A DNA stretch of 64,000 bases. It comes from Thalassobium sp. R2A62 (GTDB taxonomy: Bacteria > Pseudomonadota > Alphaproteobacteria > Rhodobacterales > Rhodobacteraceae). The position numbers and the translations under genes were made by a program. Numbering within the stretch: position 1 is the stretch's first letter; every line of letters begins with the position of its first letter. The stretch covers positions 3,398,267 to 3,462,266 of the forward strand of contig NZ_GG697169.2 of the NCBI RefSeq assembly GCF_000161835.1, written 5' to 3'. Below are positions 25,737 through 32,156 of the stretch, in pieces. The notes under the pieces were generated by a model. The model did not search any database and was not told the origin of the DNA. It saw only the letters and a list, made by a program, of their open reading frames with translations.

Positions 25737-26216
25737 ATGACCAAAGCACCTCAAAACCGGATCTTGCGTTGGGTTCTTGTCGCGTCACTTGCGGTCAACT
25801 TGTTGGTTGTCGGGGTTGTGGCTGGTTCATTTGCCAAAACTGGCAATGGCCCTCGCGGGGGAGCTGATCTGGGTGTTGGTCCCTTTGTGCGCGCGCTTGA
25901 TGCCGATGGTCGGCGCGAGGTTCTGCGCGAATTGCGGAGCAATCGACAGGTCAGCGGCGAGTTTCGCAATCTTCACCGTCAAGGGTTCCGCGATATTATT
26001 GAAGTGCTCAACACAGAGCCGTTCGATCCCGAGGCCATGCAGGCGTTGTTTGAAAGCCAGCGTGGCCAAACCCAAGCGATCCAAGCTGCCGGTCAGCAGG
26101 CGCTGTTAGAGCATCTGACCGACATGACCCCAGAAGAACGTGCTGCATTCGCCACGCGTTTCGAGACAGAAATCAAACGCCCACGCGGCCCCAGACGTCC
26201 ACGTTCAGGCGGCTGA
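25737..26216 (+). CDS. Periplasmic sensor-like protein (Spy/CnrX type)
   Basis: 159 residues. A single N-terminal membrane span (about 12-33, 'WVLVASLAVNLLVVGVVAG') anchors a helical periplasmic domain of about 110 residues rich in Arg/Gln/Glu, with the 'LTDMTPEERAAFATRFE' segment typical of the Spy/CpxP/heavy-metal-sensor superfamily (LTxxQ-like). Such domains sense metal or misfolded protein in complex with an anti-sigma factor. The start at 25737 follows GGAGGGTTGAA. It overlaps the convergent diguanylate cyclase gene by 12 nt. There are few His or Cys in the chain, so a metal ligand set is not obvious. Confidence 0.85.
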   Translation: MTKAPQNRILRWVLVASLAVNLLVVGVVAGSFAKTGNGPRGGADLGVGPFVRALDADGRREVLRELRSNRQVSGEFRNLHRQGFRDIIEVLNTEPFDPEAMQALFESQRGQTQAIQAAGQQALLEHLTDMTPEERAAFATRFETEIKRPRGPRRPRSGG

Positions 26217-27584
26217 GGCGCTGATTTCGACTGTGTTTCGGCCGGCGTTTTTGGCCGAATACAAAGCCGCGTCCGCGCGACCAAAAAGATGGTCAAACGG
26301 CGGAGTTAACAGGGCTTCATCCCCGCTCATCGCGACACCAATGCTTAGGGTCACGGGCACGGGCATGCCCAGTTGGGGAATATGAAACGGAGTATCATCG
26401 ACGACTGACCTCAACCGTTGGGCCGCAATTTCGGCTTCCTCTTGGGTTGTCTCAGGCAAAGTCACTAGAAATTCTTCGCCCCCGACACGCGCGATCAGAT
26501 CAATCAGTCGCAAGTTGTTGCGCAACCGGCGTGCGACCTCGATCAAAACAGCGTCGCCTGCTCGGTGTCCATATTTGTCGTTCACTGATTTAAAGTGATC
26601 GATATCCAACATCATCACTGCAAATTCGCGACCAGATTCTTTGGCCCTTTCCGCGATACGTTCCAAATGGGGCATCGCATAACGGCGATTGAACAGGCCG
26701 GTCAACGGATCGGTTACCGCAGCATTCAAGCCGTCACTCACACCTTTGCGCAGCCGGTCTTGCTGTTGCTTTCGTCGGACCTGAGTGTGAATGCGAAGTC
26801 TCAGCTCTTGATCCTCAAACGGATAGGGCAAAACATCGTTTGCCCCCAAATCCAATGCCATGGCAGCGATATCCGGTTGGGTGTCGGATAAAACAACGAC
26901 GATCGTAGCCAATCGGGTGTCCTTTCGGCTTCGCAGTTCTGAGACCAATTGCATTGCGCGTACTGTCGACAGGCTCGCGGCATCGAGCACGAAAACATCT
27001 GAATGAGAGGCCCCACTGCCAACTTCGAACACATCGTCGATATGCAATTTGATGGTCTTTATGCCACTTACAGAGGTCAAGACAGACGTCCATCGTTGAG
27101 ACGCCGCAGGAGGCGCGGTAATCAGGGAAACGGTGCTAGGGGCCTCAAAATTCGTGGCTTGTTCCGCGAACCCGAGCGCGCGTTTGGTGTCGTCGCGCAG
27201 CTTTAGTTCCGATGCTGCGTCCTTTGCGCGAAGCAGACTGCGAATTCGGGCCAACAGCAATGTTTCGTTCAGCGGTTTGAGCAGAACCTCATCGGCACCG
27301 GCGGCAAAGGCTGCGATCTTGTCGTCGCTGCTTTCGTGGGTCGCGGTGACGATGATCGGTACATCGGGAAATGACGTGCGGATATGCTGGCACAATGTGA
27401 CAGCCCCCAAATCAGGAAAACCAAGATCCATGACAACAACGTCTGGGCATTTTTGATCAATCTGGGCAATCGCGTCTTTGACGGACATGCTTTGTACAAC
27501 GTCATATTTTGCGGACGCCAGTTTGACCTTCAGGACGATACGGTTGGTGGCAACTTCGTCAACAATCAGCACCTGTCCCGACAT
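26205..27584 (-). CDS. pleD: PleD-like response regulator diguanylate cyclase
   Basis: 459 residues arranged as receiver-receiver-GGDEF, the PleD order. Receiver 1 has phospho-acceptor Asp53 ('VVVMDLGFPD') and the KP pair near 103. Receiver 2 (about 150-270) is an adaptor. The cyclase domain has GGEEF at 368-372 and an inhibitory site Arg359-x-x-Asp362 five residues before it, so it should make c-di-GMP and be inhibited by its product. In Caulobacter this protein governs the swarmer to stalked change. Single gene, divergent (107 bp gap) from the DUF3572 gene. No partner kinase (DivJ/PleC) in the window. Confidence 0.93.
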   Translation of the reverse strand: MSGQVLIVDEVATNRIVLKVKLASAKYDVVQSMSVKDAIAQIDQKCPDVVVMDLGFPDLGAVTLCQHIRTSFPDVPIIVTATHESSDDKIAAFAAGADEVLLKPLNETLLLARIRSLLRAKDAASELKLRDDTKRALGFAEQATNFEAPSTVSLITAPPAASQRWTSVLTSVSGIKTIKLHIDDVFEVGSGASHSDVFVLDAASLSTVRAMQLVSELRSRKDTRLATIVVVLSDTQPDIAAMALDLGANDVLPYPFEDQELRLRIHTQVRRKQQQDRLRKGVSDGLNAAVTDPLTGLFNRRYAMPHLERIAERAKESGREFAVMMLDIDHFKSVNDKYGHRAGDAVLIEVARRLRNNLRLIDLIARVGGEEFLVTLPETTQEEAEIAAQRLRSVVDDTPFHIPQLGMPVPVTLSIGVAMSGDEALLTPPFDHLFGRADAALYSAKNAGRNTVEISASAA

Positions 27585-27691
27585 TCGTTTACGTCCTTTC
27601 CGACAGTAAGAGCGTCACCTTCTGTCTTTCCTTGGGGCCAATGTCGTGGCAAATGGTTAAGAAAGGGTTTCTGTTTGCGTAAGGAAAATGA

Positions 27692-27970
27692 ATGACACCA
27701 GCCGCTGCAGAGACAATTGGCCTACAGGCGCTTGCTTGGTTGGTCGGCGACGAAGAATTGTGCCCCGTCTTTATGGGATCGACGGGTGCCTCGGTCGACG
27801 ATTTGCGCGTTCGGGCCAATGATCCTGCGTTTTTGGGCTCGGTTCTCGAATTTCTGACAATGAACGATCAGTGGGTCATGCAGTTTTGCGATGCGAATGA
27901 ATTGAAGTACGAAATGCCCCTTCATGCGCGGTATGCCTTGCCCGGTGCGCAGGACGTTCATTGGACATGA
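27692..27970 (+). CDS. DUF3572 protein
   Basis: 92 residues, all helical in character, starting 'TPAAAETIGLQALAWLVGD', a typical DUF3572 start with 'QALAWL'. The tail includes 'SVLEFLTMNDQWVMQFCD'. These small proteins occur throughout the alphaproteobacteria next to phosphatase or receiver genes, with no known function. ATG at 27692 follows AAGGAAAATGA. Its stop overlaps the HAD phosphatase start (ATGA) and the two are an operon. Confidence 0.88.
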   Translation: MTPAAAETIGLQALAWLVGDEELCPVFMGSTGASVDDLRVRANDPAFLGSVLEFLTMNDQWVMQFCDANELKYEMPLHARYALPGAQDVHWT

Positions 27971-28695
27971 ATGTTAAGAAAGATCTCGGAATGGGTAACC
28001 AAGGCACGGGCATCAAGGGCGTTCTCTTTGACAAAGATGGAACGCTTTTTGACTTTGACGCCACATGGGGTGTTTGGGCTGCGCGTTTCCTGACCCAAGA
28101 GGCTGGCGGCGATCCGGAGCTTGCCCAAAGATTGGGTGATGCTGTCGGGTATGACATGGCGCAGACGCGGTTTCGAAGATCAAGCGTCGTTGTCGCGGGC
28201 ACACCGCGCGAAATCGCTGAACAATTGCTGCCGCAGCTTCCGTCTCAGCCCATTTCTGAGCTGATGGACCGGATGAACACGATGGCGCAACAGGTGCCGC
28301 AGGTCGAAGTCGTTCCATTGCACGAGTTCGTGCTGGACCTTAAGGCGCGTGGCCTGAAAATTGGTGTCGCGACAAATGACGCCGAAGCACCAGCTCGAAC
28401 TCATCTGGAACGCGCGGGAGTCGAAGCTCACTTTGATTTCGTCGCGGGATCAGACAGCGGATATGGTGGAAAACCATCGGCGGGGCAGTTGATAGCATTT
28501 TGTGACGCGGTCGGCCTGGCCCCCGAAGATTGTGCAATGGTTGGGGATAGCTTGCATGACCTATCCGCAGGTCAAGCGGCTGGAATGTTTCGGATCGGCG
28601 TCCTGACAGGCACGGCGACGGAACAAGATTTGGGGCCGCATTGTGATCTGCTCTTGTCCAGCATTGGCGCTTTAGGTGCGTGGCTCGACGCCTAA
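27967..28695 (+). CDS. HAD-family phosphatase, phosphoglycolate phosphatase-like
   Basis: About 242 residues from the ATG at 27967 (an in-frame TTG lies two codons earlier). HAD motifs: I 'LFDKDGTLFDFD' near residue 20 with nucleophile Asp, II 'VATNDAE' near 135, III Lys in 'GYGGKPSAGQ', IV 'MVGDSLHDLSAG' near 190. A four-helix cap inserted after motif I makes it a subclass I enzyme. It hydrolyses a small phosphomonoester, possibly 2-phosphoglycolate. Four-base overlap with DUF3572. Confidence 0.9.
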   Translation: MNVKKDLGMGNQGTGIKGVLFDKDGTLFDFDATWGVWAARFLTQEAGGDPELAQRLGDAVGYDMAQTRFRRSSVVVAGTPREIAEQLLPQLPSQPISELMDRMNTMAQQVPQVEVVPLHEFVLDLKARGLKIGVATNDAEAPARTHLERAGVEAHFDFVAGSDSGYGGKPSAGQLIAFCDAVGLAPEDCAMVGDSLHDLSAGQAAGMFRIGVLTGTATEQDLGPHCDLLLSSIGALGAWLDA

Positions 28696-28797
28696 TCCGA
28701 ACCAACGTTCGTCAAAAACGACACCAGATGTCGCCCGAGGCGCGGTAATCCCATTGTGACTATTGTCCGATCAAGACAGTCATAAGAGGAGAACCCG

Positions 28798-30357
28798 ATG
28801 TCTGATACTGGTCCCAAACGCCGTCGTGGCGGTGGCCGCGCTGGAAATGCCGCCAGACGTGGTGGCAATGTGATCGATCAGATGCCGTGGCGAATTCCTG
28901 TAAATATTGACGCCCCGACCGAACCATTGACCCCAGAGGGGGTAGAAGCGGTTCATGATGGTGCCATGCGCATTCTCGAAGAGATCGGGATCGTCTTTCT
29001 CAACGAAGAGAGCCTTGCATTGTTCAAAGAGGCTGGATGCAAAGTCGAAGGTGAAACCGTTAAGATGGGTCGTGACTGGGTCATGGAGATGATTGCTCAG
29101 GCCCCTGCAGAATTCACAATCACGCCGCGTAACCCTGCGAGGGCGTTGCCAATCGGTGGCAAACATATCTTGTTTGGAAATGTGTCTTCACCGCCCAACT
29201 ATTACGACCTCGAGATTGGGAAAAAGGTTCCCGGTAATCGCAAGCAATGTGCGGATCTGTTGCGGCTCACACAGTATTTTAACTGTATCCACTTTGCCGG
29301 TGGCTATCCTGTGGAACCGGTCGATATCCATGCCAGCATTAGGCACCTCGATGTTGTGCATGACAAACTGACCCTGACGGACAAAGTCGCCCATGCCTAT
29401 TCCTTGGGGCAAGAGCGGGTTGAGGATGTGATGGAGATGGTGCGTATCTCTGGCGGCTGGACCCATGAAGAATTTGAAGCCAGCCCCAAGATGTACACTA
29501 ACATCAATTCAACCTCGCCGCTAAAACATGACGTCCCGATGATCGACGGCTGCTTGCGGATGATCCGCAGAGGGCAGGCGGTGTTCGTGACCCCATTCAC
29601 ATTGGCAGGAGCCATGGCGCCGGTCACAATGGCAGGTGCCGTGGCACAGTCTATTGCCGAAGCGCTCGCCGCGATTGCGTTGTTCCAGTACGTCCGGCCG
29701 GGATCGGCCTGCGTTATCGGTACATTCACATCCAACGTAGACATGAAATCTGGTGCGCCAGCGTTTGGAACACCTGAATATATGCGTGCGACGCAAATGA
29801 CGGGCCAAATGGCGCGGTGCTACGGATTGCCGATGCGCGCCTCCGGCTCTTGTGCGGCTAACGTACCTGACGGCCAAGCCATGTGGGAAACCTCGAACGC
29901 CATGTGGTCAGCCGTTCAGTCAGGTACAAACGTAGTCTACCACGCTGCAGGTTGGCTCGAAGGAGGGCTGATCGCCAGCCCGGAAAAGTTTGTGATGGAC
30001 TGTGAAGTTCTGCAAATGATCCAACGCTATATGGAGCCCCAAATTTGCGACACCAGCGCCGATGGCATTGCTCTCGACGCTATTCGAGAGGTGGGCAGTG
30101 ATGGGCACTTCTTTGGGATTGAACACACCCAAGAACGCTATGAAACTGCGTTCTACCAACCGTTCGTATCGGACTGGCGGAACTTTGAAGGCTGGGATCT
30201 CGCCGGCGGCGTTTGGACTGCCGAGCGTGCGCATGGGATATTCAAAGAGATCATCGCCAATTTTGAAGAACCACCAATGGACGCGGGGATCAAAGAAGAG
30301 CTCGCCGCATTTGTAGAGAAACGCAAACGCGAAGGCGGAGCCCCGACCGACTTCTAA
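28798..30357 (+). CDS. MttB-superfamily corrinoid-dependent methyltransferase without pyrrolysine
   Basis: 519 residues in the trimethylamine methyltransferase (MttB) family TIM barrel. The frame is fully open with no internal amber codon, so it belongs to the non-pyrrolysine group, some members of which (MtgB-type) demethylate glycine betaine or other quaternary amines. The first 25 residues are a basic Gly/Arg stretch (KRRRGGGRAGNAARRGG) common in Roseobacter members. Conserved features include 'YFNCIHFAGGYPVEPVDI' and 'MASGxx-type' glycine turns ('MRASGSCAANVPDGQAMWET'). No corrinoid protein gene lies next to it. With the carnitine and sarcosine genes in this window, a methylated-amine substrate is plausible. 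Confidence 0.9.
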   Translation: MSDTGPKRRRGGGRAGNAARRGGNVIDQMPWRIPVNIDAPTEPLTPEGVEAVHDGAMRILEEIGIVFLNEESLALFKEAGCKVEGETVKMGRDWVMEMIAQAPAEFTITPRNPARALPIGGKHILFGNVSSPPNYYDLEIGKKVPGNRKQCADLLRLTQYFNCIHFAGGYPVEPVDIHASIRHLDVVHDKLTLTDKVAHAYSLGQERVEDVMEMVRISGGWTHEEFEASPKMYTNINSTSPLKHDVPMIDGCLRMIRRGQAVFVTPFTLAGAMAPVTMAGAVAQSIAEALAAIALFQYVRPGSACVIGTFTSNVDMKSGAPAFGTPEYMRATQMTGQMARCYGLPMRASGSCAANVPDGQAMWETSNAMWSAVQSGTNVVYHAAGWLEGGLIASPEKFVMDCEVLQMIQRYMEPQICDTSADGIALDAIREVGSDGHFFGIEHTQERYETAFYQPFVSDWRNFEGWDLAGGVWTAERAHGIFKEIIANFEEPPMDAGIKEELAAFVEKRKREGGAPTDF

Positions 30358-30448
30358 TCTATAAAGTGGTTAAGGTCTCTCGAAGGGCATAAGGCTTTTG
30401 TTAACATCCGTCGGTCATACCCGAACGTGGTAACTGTTTGGAGGTGTT

Positions 30449-31033
30449 ATGCACGGGCTCATAAATCGCGCATTTCAAAGTTTTGTGTGTGATACATATG
30501 GCGAAGCGATCTGGGAAACGATCGTGCGCAAGGCTGCGCTTGAGGTCACAACCTTTGAGGCGATGCTGGTCTATGATGACCAGATTTTGTTCGACATGAT
30601 CAGGGCTGCTTCAGAAACCCTCCAAAAACCGTGCTCGGTCCTGCTCGAAGACGTCGGTACCTATCTGGTGTCTCACCCGACCAGCGGTGGCCTACGTCGC
30701 CTGTTACGGTTCGGTGGCGATACGTTCGGTGACTTCTTGCTGACGCTTGATGATATGCCGGATTGGGCCCAGCTCGCATTGCCCGAACTCTACATCCCGC
30801 CCCTTGAGGTGCGCCAAACAGGCCCTGATGGATACCGCATTGTCGTTAATTCACCGCTGGCAGGGATCGCGTTTGGGATTTTGGGCGTGCTGCGGGCAAT
30901 GGCTGATGACTATGGAGCGCTTGTTCTTATGGACCTTGCAAAAGGTGAGACAGGGCTCGATCAGATTGAGGTCCAATTGTTAGACGTCAAATTTGCCAAG
31001 GCTCGGGAATTTGAACTGGCGCATAGCCAATGA
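30449..31033 (+). CDS. H-NOX-fold protein lacking haem-ligating residues
   Basis: 194 residues, the usual length of stand-alone haem-NO/O2-binding proteins, starting 'MHGLINRAFQSFV'. The region that normally carries the proximal haem histidine reads 'LLTLDDMPDWAQL', with Pro104 in place of His. The propionate-binding YxSxR triad is replaced by Val133-x-Ser135-x-Leu137. The only other His are at 2, 76 and 191. It should therefore not hold haem in the classical way, yet its partner is intact. Its stop overlaps the HNOBA-GGDEF start (ATGA). It may bind another ligand or act as a constitutive or protein-sensing module. Confidence 0.85.
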   Translation: MHGLINRAFQSFVCDTYGEAIWETIVRKAALEVTTFEAMLVYDDQILFDMIRAASETLQKPCSVLLEDVGTYLVSHPTSGGLRRLLRFGGDTFGDFLLTLDDMPDWAQLALPELYIPPLEVRQTGPDGYRIVVNSPLAGIAFGILGVLRAMADDYGALVLMDLAKGETGLDQIEVQLLDVKFAKAREFELAHSQ

Positions 31034-32067
31034 CTGTTCAATCTCATGATTTCAACGCTGATGTGTGCCAAGTGGATGCCGTCTTGGACGTTGTTTGCCC
31101 GATGCACGTGCGGCTCGGTGCAGGTGGGGAAATTCTGAACATTGGCCCAACCCTGCGGAAATGTTGGTCTCAACACTTTGCAATTGGTGATCCGGTTTTC
31201 GATGCGTTTTCGATGCTTCGTCCGCGTGCGGGTGACAAATTCAGTGATCTCATCGAAACGGCAGGGCAAAAACTTCACCTCGCATTCGTCGCGAACCCAG
31301 AGACACGTCTCAAGGGGGTGCTTGTACCGCTTGGGGATCAGCTGGGGTATTTGTTGACCTTGTCTTTCGGAATCGGCGTGATCGATGCGGTGCGACGCTT
31401 TGATCTGACGTCAGCGGATTTTGCCCATACCGATCTTGCCATCGAAATGCTTTACCTCGTCGAGGCCAAAAACGCGGTTATGGACGAAACCAAAAAGCTG
31501 AACCTGCGCCTTCAATCGGCCCGCGAAGCCGCTGAAGAACAGGCATTTGCAGATGCTTTGACAGGGCTTAGCAACCGCCGAGCTCTGGACCAGATGCTTG
31601 AGCAAACTCTGACCCAAGGCAATGATTTTGCATTGATGCAAATAGATCTCGACCACTTCAAAGCAGTCAATGATACGTTGGGACATGCAGCCGGTGATCA
31701 TGTGTTGACGGCAGTTGCCGAAATTTTGCGGGACGTGACACGTTCCGATGACGTCGTGACGCGGATCGGGGGCGACGAATTTGTCATTTTGTTCTTGGGG
31801 CTGGTCGACCGCGAACGACTAGGCACAATCGCGTCGCGGGTGATTGAACGGATTGAAGTACCGATTCCATTCGAAGGCGAGATGTGTCGAATTTCTGCGA
31901 GCGCGGGCACAACCTTGTCCACGTATTATTCTGACCCAACGGCGATTCAGATGCTCGCAGACGCGGACCGGGCTCTCTATCGCAGCAAGTCGTTAGGCCG
32001 CGCCCAACACTGCTTTTTTAAACCTGAACAAGACATAACCCTGGCGCAGCGCGCTGAAGACCAATAA
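31030..32067 (+). CDS. HNOBA-domain diguanylate cyclase
   Basis: 345 residues. The first 160 form an HNOBA (haem-NO-binding-associated, PAS-like) domain as in soluble guanylate cyclases: 'CPMHVRLGAGGEILNIGPTL' and 'RPRAGDKFSDLI'. A coiled coil (about 148-172) leads to a cyclase domain with GGDEF at 247-251 and an inhibitory site Arg238-x-x-Asp241. It makes c-di-GMP, normally under control of the H-NOX partner encoded just upstream. Since that partner lacks haem ligands, the input may differ from NO. Ends 15 bases before the tRNA region. Confidence 0.92.
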   Translation: MTVQSHDFNADVCQVDAVLDVVCPMHVRLGAGGEILNIGPTLRKCWSQHFAIGDPVFDAFSMLRPRAGDKFSDLIETAGQKLHLAFVANPETRLKGVLVPLGDQLGYLLTLSFGIGVIDAVRRFDLTSADFAHTDLAIEMLYLVEAKNAVMDETKKLNLRLQSAREAAEEQAFADALTGLSNRRALDQMLEQTLTQGNDFALMQIDLDHFKAVNDTLGHAAGDHVLTAVAEILRDVTRSDDVVTRIGGDEFVILFLGLVDRERLGTIASRVIERIEVPIPFEGEMCRISASAGTTLSTYYSDPTAIQMLADADRALYRSKSLGRAQHCFFKPEQDITLAQRAEDQ

Positions 32068-32081
32068 TTTTGGGGAAACCG

Positions 32082-32156
32082 TGGCAGCCCGTAGGGGAAT
32101 CGAACCCCTCTTTCCAGGTTGAAAACCTGGCGTCCTAACCGATAGACGAACGGGCC
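32082..32156 (-). tRNA. tRNA-Glu(TTC)
   Basis: On the minus strand the cloverleaf reads from 32156: acceptor GGCCCGT paired with ACGGGCT, D arm, anticodon stem CCAGG / CCTGG around the loop TTTTCAA (anticodon TTC), T arm GGGGTTCGATTCCCC, and an encoded CCA (32082-32084). It starts with a G1-U72 pair, as is usual for alphaproteobacterial tRNA-Glu. Confidence 0.97.

Follow-up and report, generated by a model that had tools for sequence, protein, structure and literature searches.

A Group 5 H-NOX protein without haem ligands, co-encoded with an HNOBA-GGDEF cyclase in Thalassobium sp. R2A62

How might an H-NOX protein control a cyclase when the residues expected to hold its haem are gone? In canonical H-NOX proteins NO signals via breakage of the Fe-His bond, a switch that is unusable where the protein has no such His. 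A protein of this kind is encoded in the window analysed here, a stretch of 64,000 nucleotides from Thalassobium sp. R2A62 (contig NZ_GG697169.2), and its gene runs into that of a predicted diguanylate cyclase. The H-NOX gene and its haem-related sites are:

30449..31033, plus strand: H-NOX (HNOB) protein of 194 aa, haem-ligand-less, Group 5 type (PF07700 84 bits, cut-off 25.5; AF2 pLDDT 91.4; TM-score 0.86 to Nostoc H-NOX 2o09)
30758..30760, plus strand: codon of Pro104, which aligns with His105 of alr2278 and so stands where the proximal haem His would be
30797..30799, plus strand: codon of Pro117, the counterpart of haem-packing Pro118 in alr2278, invariant in 180/180 relatives
30845..30859, plus strand: V133-N-S135-P-L137, in the place of the YxSxR propionate triad (alignment with Nostoc alr2278)
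31013..31015, plus strand: codon of Glu189, part of the GRxFxL motif that the family has at its C-terminus; an acid at 189 accompanies the absence of His104

The Pfam match of the open reading frame and the AlphaFold model place the protein in the H-NOX fold family. An earlier note on this DNA had read Pro104 at the proximal His, and V-x-S-x-L where YxSxR would stand; the alignment with alr2278 gives the same reading, and the lack of both features supports the expectation that classical haem binding does not take place. Two other known variants of the fold do not describe the protein either. It starts MHGLI at residue 1 of alr2278, with no N-terminal extension that could block the pocket as in the alpha subunit of soluble guanylate cyclase (sGC), and it contains only two Cys, so that the 3-Cys zinc site of redox-sensing H-NOX proteins of the V. 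cholerae type is absent. Two residues past the lost His, the window copy carries a Trp106 of its own (codon 30764-30766); the residue is Arg in 114 of 120 relatives and in alr2278.

A private mutation or a sequencing error was rejected as the source of Pro104 after a census of the family. The window protein was searched against 397 Rhodobacteraceae genomes, one per genus, and relatives were present in 290 of them; in the remainder of the class H-NOX is rare. For gene comparison, 180 genera spread across the whole similarity range were taken, and Pro is the majority state at the His site (125 genera, against 18 with His and 37 with Q, R, N, A, S, G, T, E or K). His is thus absent from 162 of the 180, and the full YxSxR from all of them. 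A long open reading frame lies directly 3' of the H-NOX gene in 179 of these genera and carries a GGDEF motif in 172, and dN/dS among close pairs ranges from 0.04 to 0.29; given this breadth of occurrence and this purifying selection, the window pair is no product of chance. One member of the family (L190, 297 aa in total) has a long low-complexity insert rich in Pro, Ala and Gly ahead of the C-terminal motif; it was considered as a fusion of H-NOX and cyclase and rejected as such, and no natural fusion of the kind wanted for modelling the complex was found.

The same data bear on the possibility that the H-NOX gene is decaying and persists as a relic only through its coupling to the cyclase gene. 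Broken copies do occur in a few genera, one split into two pieces (G036:C34:227374-227947) and another with an internal TAA (G176:C2:234637-235215), and Trp106 of the window copy would also fit with decay. Against this, the gene is intact in nearly all 290 genera, including the window as the earlier note had stated, dN/dS lies far below 1, the promoter element described below is conserved, and deletion of the P. denitrificans homologue has a phenotype. A relic is therefore strongly disfavoured and appears very improbable.

Proteins of this kind have been described before. Lee-Lopez & Yukl 2022 (PMC8738867) delineated a cluster, Group 5, in which fewer than 10% of the members have the His and most have Pro, conserved Cys residues are reported absent, and the gene neighbours encode HAD, MttB and GGDEF proteins; the type protein is Pden_3719 of P. 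denitrificans, paired with DgcA (Pden_3720), and the authors posed the question of how Group 5 senses anything. The window H-NOX belongs to this group, judging by its Pro site, the adjacent GGDEF gene, its HAD and MttB neighbours, and homology (34% identity to the P. denitrificans H-NOX over 194 aa, E 7e-18), so that the Pro substitution, taken at first for a novelty, is not one.

The partner gene has the following features:

31030..32067, plus strand: diguanylate cyclase of 345 aa, HNOBA - signalling helix - GGDEF (GGDEF 133 bits; profile match to sGC beta-1 207-382; AF2 pLDDT 93.2)
31030..31033, plus strand: ATGA overlap of the cyclase start and the H-NOX stop, at equal offset in 120/180 genera
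31741..31752, plus strand: I-site R238-x-x-D241 (among 38 relatives, R238 invariant and D241 in at least 90%)
31768..31782, plus strand: GGDEF motif, residues 247-251, invariant in 38 relatives

With regard to the cyclase, the earlier note had claimed an intact HNOBA domain, GGDEF active site and inhibitory site, translated from the overlap. The overlap, the active site and the inhibitory site were confirmed. The HNOBA domain fails by Pfam alone, as the N-terminal domain of the window protein scores only 19 bits, under the cut-off of 23.4, and stands on its family: 31 of 38 cyclase relatives match HNOBA, and the profile built from the 38 matches residues 207-382 of sGC beta-1 (E 3e-8) and the HNOXA domain of a Nostoc kinase, 2p04 (E 4e-7), which establishes the domain as HNOBA-type. 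In the AlphaFold model an N-terminal sensor domain is followed by a long signalling helix and the GGDEF domain. By its GGDEF active site, I-site and HNOBA domain, the partner is an HNOBA-GGDEF diguanylate cyclase whose activity is predicted from sequence. Directly behind its gene, a tRNA-Glu (ttc) lies on the minus strand (32082-32156).

The partnership is real and conserved, as is its neighbourhood. Two further features lie upstream:

26205..30357, mixed strands: PleD-like response-regulator cyclase (minus), HAD hydrolase (plus) and MttB-family methyltransferase (plus), conserved neighbours
30398..30405, plus strand: TTGTTAAC, a promoter-like conserved element (TTnTTAAC), 51 nt ahead of the H-NOX start

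Where 5-kb flanks were available, most loci show the PleD, HAD and MttB genes upstream in equal order, as does that of D. shibae, and in Phaeobacter sp. G2 (L290, CP104104.1) the entire PleD-HAD-MttB-HNOX-DGC block is located on a 120-kb plasmid. Moreover, of 243 distinct upstream regions, 178 have [GC]TTAA at -75 to -35, compared with 12 after shuffling, and a TAnnnT-like hexamer comes 10 nt further on. The conservation of TTnTTAAC about 51 nt before the start suggests that the H-NOX/cyclase pair probably has its own promoter. A full CtrA box (TTAA-N7-TTAA) was rejected as the upstream element, since it was seen in only 1 of 240 regions; the conserved element looks instead like a CtrA half-site, which agrees with the CtrA control reported in D. 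shibae and R. capsulatus.

What could such a protein do for its cyclase? In the reading we favour, to which we give about an even chance, the window protein is a Group 5 pseudo-H-NOX and holds its cyclase in check with no NO-haem chemistry involved. An H-NOX fold without ligated haem would act as a regulatory subunit dedicated to the HNOBA-GGDEF cyclase translated along with it, docking on the HNOBA domain and the signalling helix as in soluble guanylate cyclase. Its resting state would resemble the NO-bound, cyclase-inhibiting form and would not respond to NO, and synthesis of c-di-GMP would be restrained through co-translated dose and transcription rather than through NO. The notion of a locked, NO-bound-like state is an extrapolation from Shewanella H-NOX mutants that affect the Fe-His bond.

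Published genetics in P. denitrificans bear on this proposal. Kumar & Spiro 2017 reported that the His is missing from the H-NOX proteins of P. denitrificans and R. sphaeroides, and that in P. denitrificans deletion of the H-NOX gene lowers biofilm and BapA while deletion of dgcAB raises both; in their own model, NO acts through H-NOX. The Pro at the His site of the P. denitrificans protein was verified here in its sequence, and these genetics thus back control of biofilm by a Pro-type member. The opposite deletion phenotypes fit a His-less H-NOX that inhibits the cyclase, an inhibition that is a genetic inference because c-di-GMP in P. denitrificans is below detection. The authors' model of NO acting through this H-NOX counts against the pseudo-H-NOX reading, and in the literature searched no purified Pro-type protein with a measured haem content was found.

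Haem could still be bound without the His, through another axial ligand, through water, or solely as five-coordinate haem-NO, with NO sensed as usual. The kept fold and the invariant Pro117 would permit this, as would the pocket itself: at the cavity-lining positions, taken from the Nostoc structure, the side chains take up less space than those of canonical H-NOX, so that the cavity is not visibly filled, a point against the pseudo-H-NOX reading, and a pocket plugged by bulky residues, the opposite of what was found, was rejected. Additionally, the D. shibae orthologue lacks YxSxR and is listed as a haem NO sensor all the same. His2 is conserved in 164 of 180 relatives, which might point to a substitute ligand; however, it is equally conserved with or without His104, and was rejected as a compensating ligand. 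Furthermore, members that have lost the His tend also to have lost Trp or His at position 135 and to have acquired an acid at 189, as one would expect if the propionates were no longer bound. Taken on both sides, we regard haem binding without the His as unlikely.

This covariation was followed across the family. The fewest changes between His and non-His on the family tree number 15, on a tree with many weakly supported inner branches. Among all other positions, Trp or His at 135 is the residue class most tied to His104, being present in 13 of 18 members with His and 19 of 162 without. An independent-pairs test of 104 and 135 had only three well-supported pairs, and a likelihood test with background columns was used for that reason. 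In Pagel tests on the tree, His104 with Trp/His135 gave a likelihood-ratio statistic (LRT) of 27.8 and His104 with a non-acid 189 one of 20.1, ranking first and second of 355 tests run (of 460 planned); since the Trp/His class was chosen after the data had been seen, how the pair ranks against the background columns is a fairer guide. A second tree, built with FastTree without these columns, gave 27.0 and 24.8. The covariation implies that the Pro form has also lost propionate-side features, and an acidic residue close to the propionates would work against haem binding. His retention was also considered as a correlate of denitrification and rejected, as members with and without His show no link to NirK (3/18 vs 6/62) or NnrS (11/18 vs 32/62), a result that counts against the pseudo-H-NOX reading.

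A third possibility is that the vacated pocket binds another small molecule, such as a tetrapyrrole, a lipid or a metabolite, making the protein a sensor with a changed ligand. Core side-chain volume is about 195 cubic angstroms below canonical, which would leave room (the fraction of random position sets as low is 0.004), and the near-invariant residues E67, D68, R83, R84 and R87 and the GRxFxL tail are specific to the family. No ligand is known, however; the core is equally small in members that bear the His, and the range of residues seen at 104, from Pro and His to Glu and Lys, argues against a specific contact. A changed ligand therefore seems improbable, to much the same degree as haem binding without the His.

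The orthologue of D. shibae offers a comparison at one locus. We take genome G035 to be D. shibae DFL 12, because Dshi_2815 and its neighbour agree with it in gene order, strand and position. Its H-NOX keeps the His, in LDDLHDRARL, and has CIWHR at the place of the triad; the states at 104/135/189 are H/W/S, compared with P/S/E in the window. By these residues the family would split into a haem-competent type, represented by D. shibae, and a haem-less type, represented by the window. A bolder proposal, which we consider tentative and somewhat less probable than the pseudo-H-NOX reading, is that Group 5 holds two interchanging types, one sensing NO through haem (His104, Trp/His135, neutral 189) and one haem-less (Pro104, small 135, acid 189), with many moves between NO-gated and NO-independent control of one cyclase; the haem-less type may use a new pocket ligand. 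Reviews list the D. shibae protein as a haem NO sensor that inhibits Dgc1. As it is a His-bearing orthologue, its NO sensing does not carry over to Pro-type members without a test.

The pair is found in most sampled Rhodobacteraceae genera, commonly under the annotation of a haem NO-binding sensor, a name that is probably wrong for about 90% of them. The Pro-type kind itself was already known as Group 5; what is new here is the genus-level census, the His-bearing orthologue of D. shibae at the equal locus, the Pro of P. denitrificans, the covarying trio and the promoter element. The question of how Group 5 senses becomes testable through orthologues at one locus, with D. shibae for His and the window or P. 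denitrificans for Pro.

Among known systems, the alpha subunit of sGC likewise pairs a haem-free H-NOX fold with an HNOBA-type domain within a cyclase complex, although that pseudo-H-NOX domain is blocked by its N-terminal extension and fused, whereas the window protein stands alone and lacks such an extension. The window genome itself encodes a second, canonical H-NOX (L288:6358-8650, G000:C1 at about 1.62 Mb; about 132 bits HNOB), which shares the fold and differs by its His, its YTSPR and its partner, an adjoining hybrid histidine kinase that includes receiver and Hpt domains; genes for IS3-type transposases lie next to this pair. With this pair present, and neither NirK nor NnrS found in the genome, NO sensing, if needed, would be housed elsewhere than in the Pro-type protein. 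Dshi_2815/Dgc1 shares the family, the gene order PleD-HAD-MttB-HNOX-DGC and the lack of YxSxR, and differs by His104, W135, S189 and its reported NO binding and inhibition of Dgc1. The earlier suggestion that the window pair differs from known NO-sensing H-NOX/DGC pairs thus stands for the missing haem ligand and falls for the locus, which is orthologous. The closest counterpart is Group 5 with Pden_3719, which has Pro for His at the equal site, a GGDEF partner, and HAD and MttB neighbours; identity is only about 34%, and there is no difference of kind.
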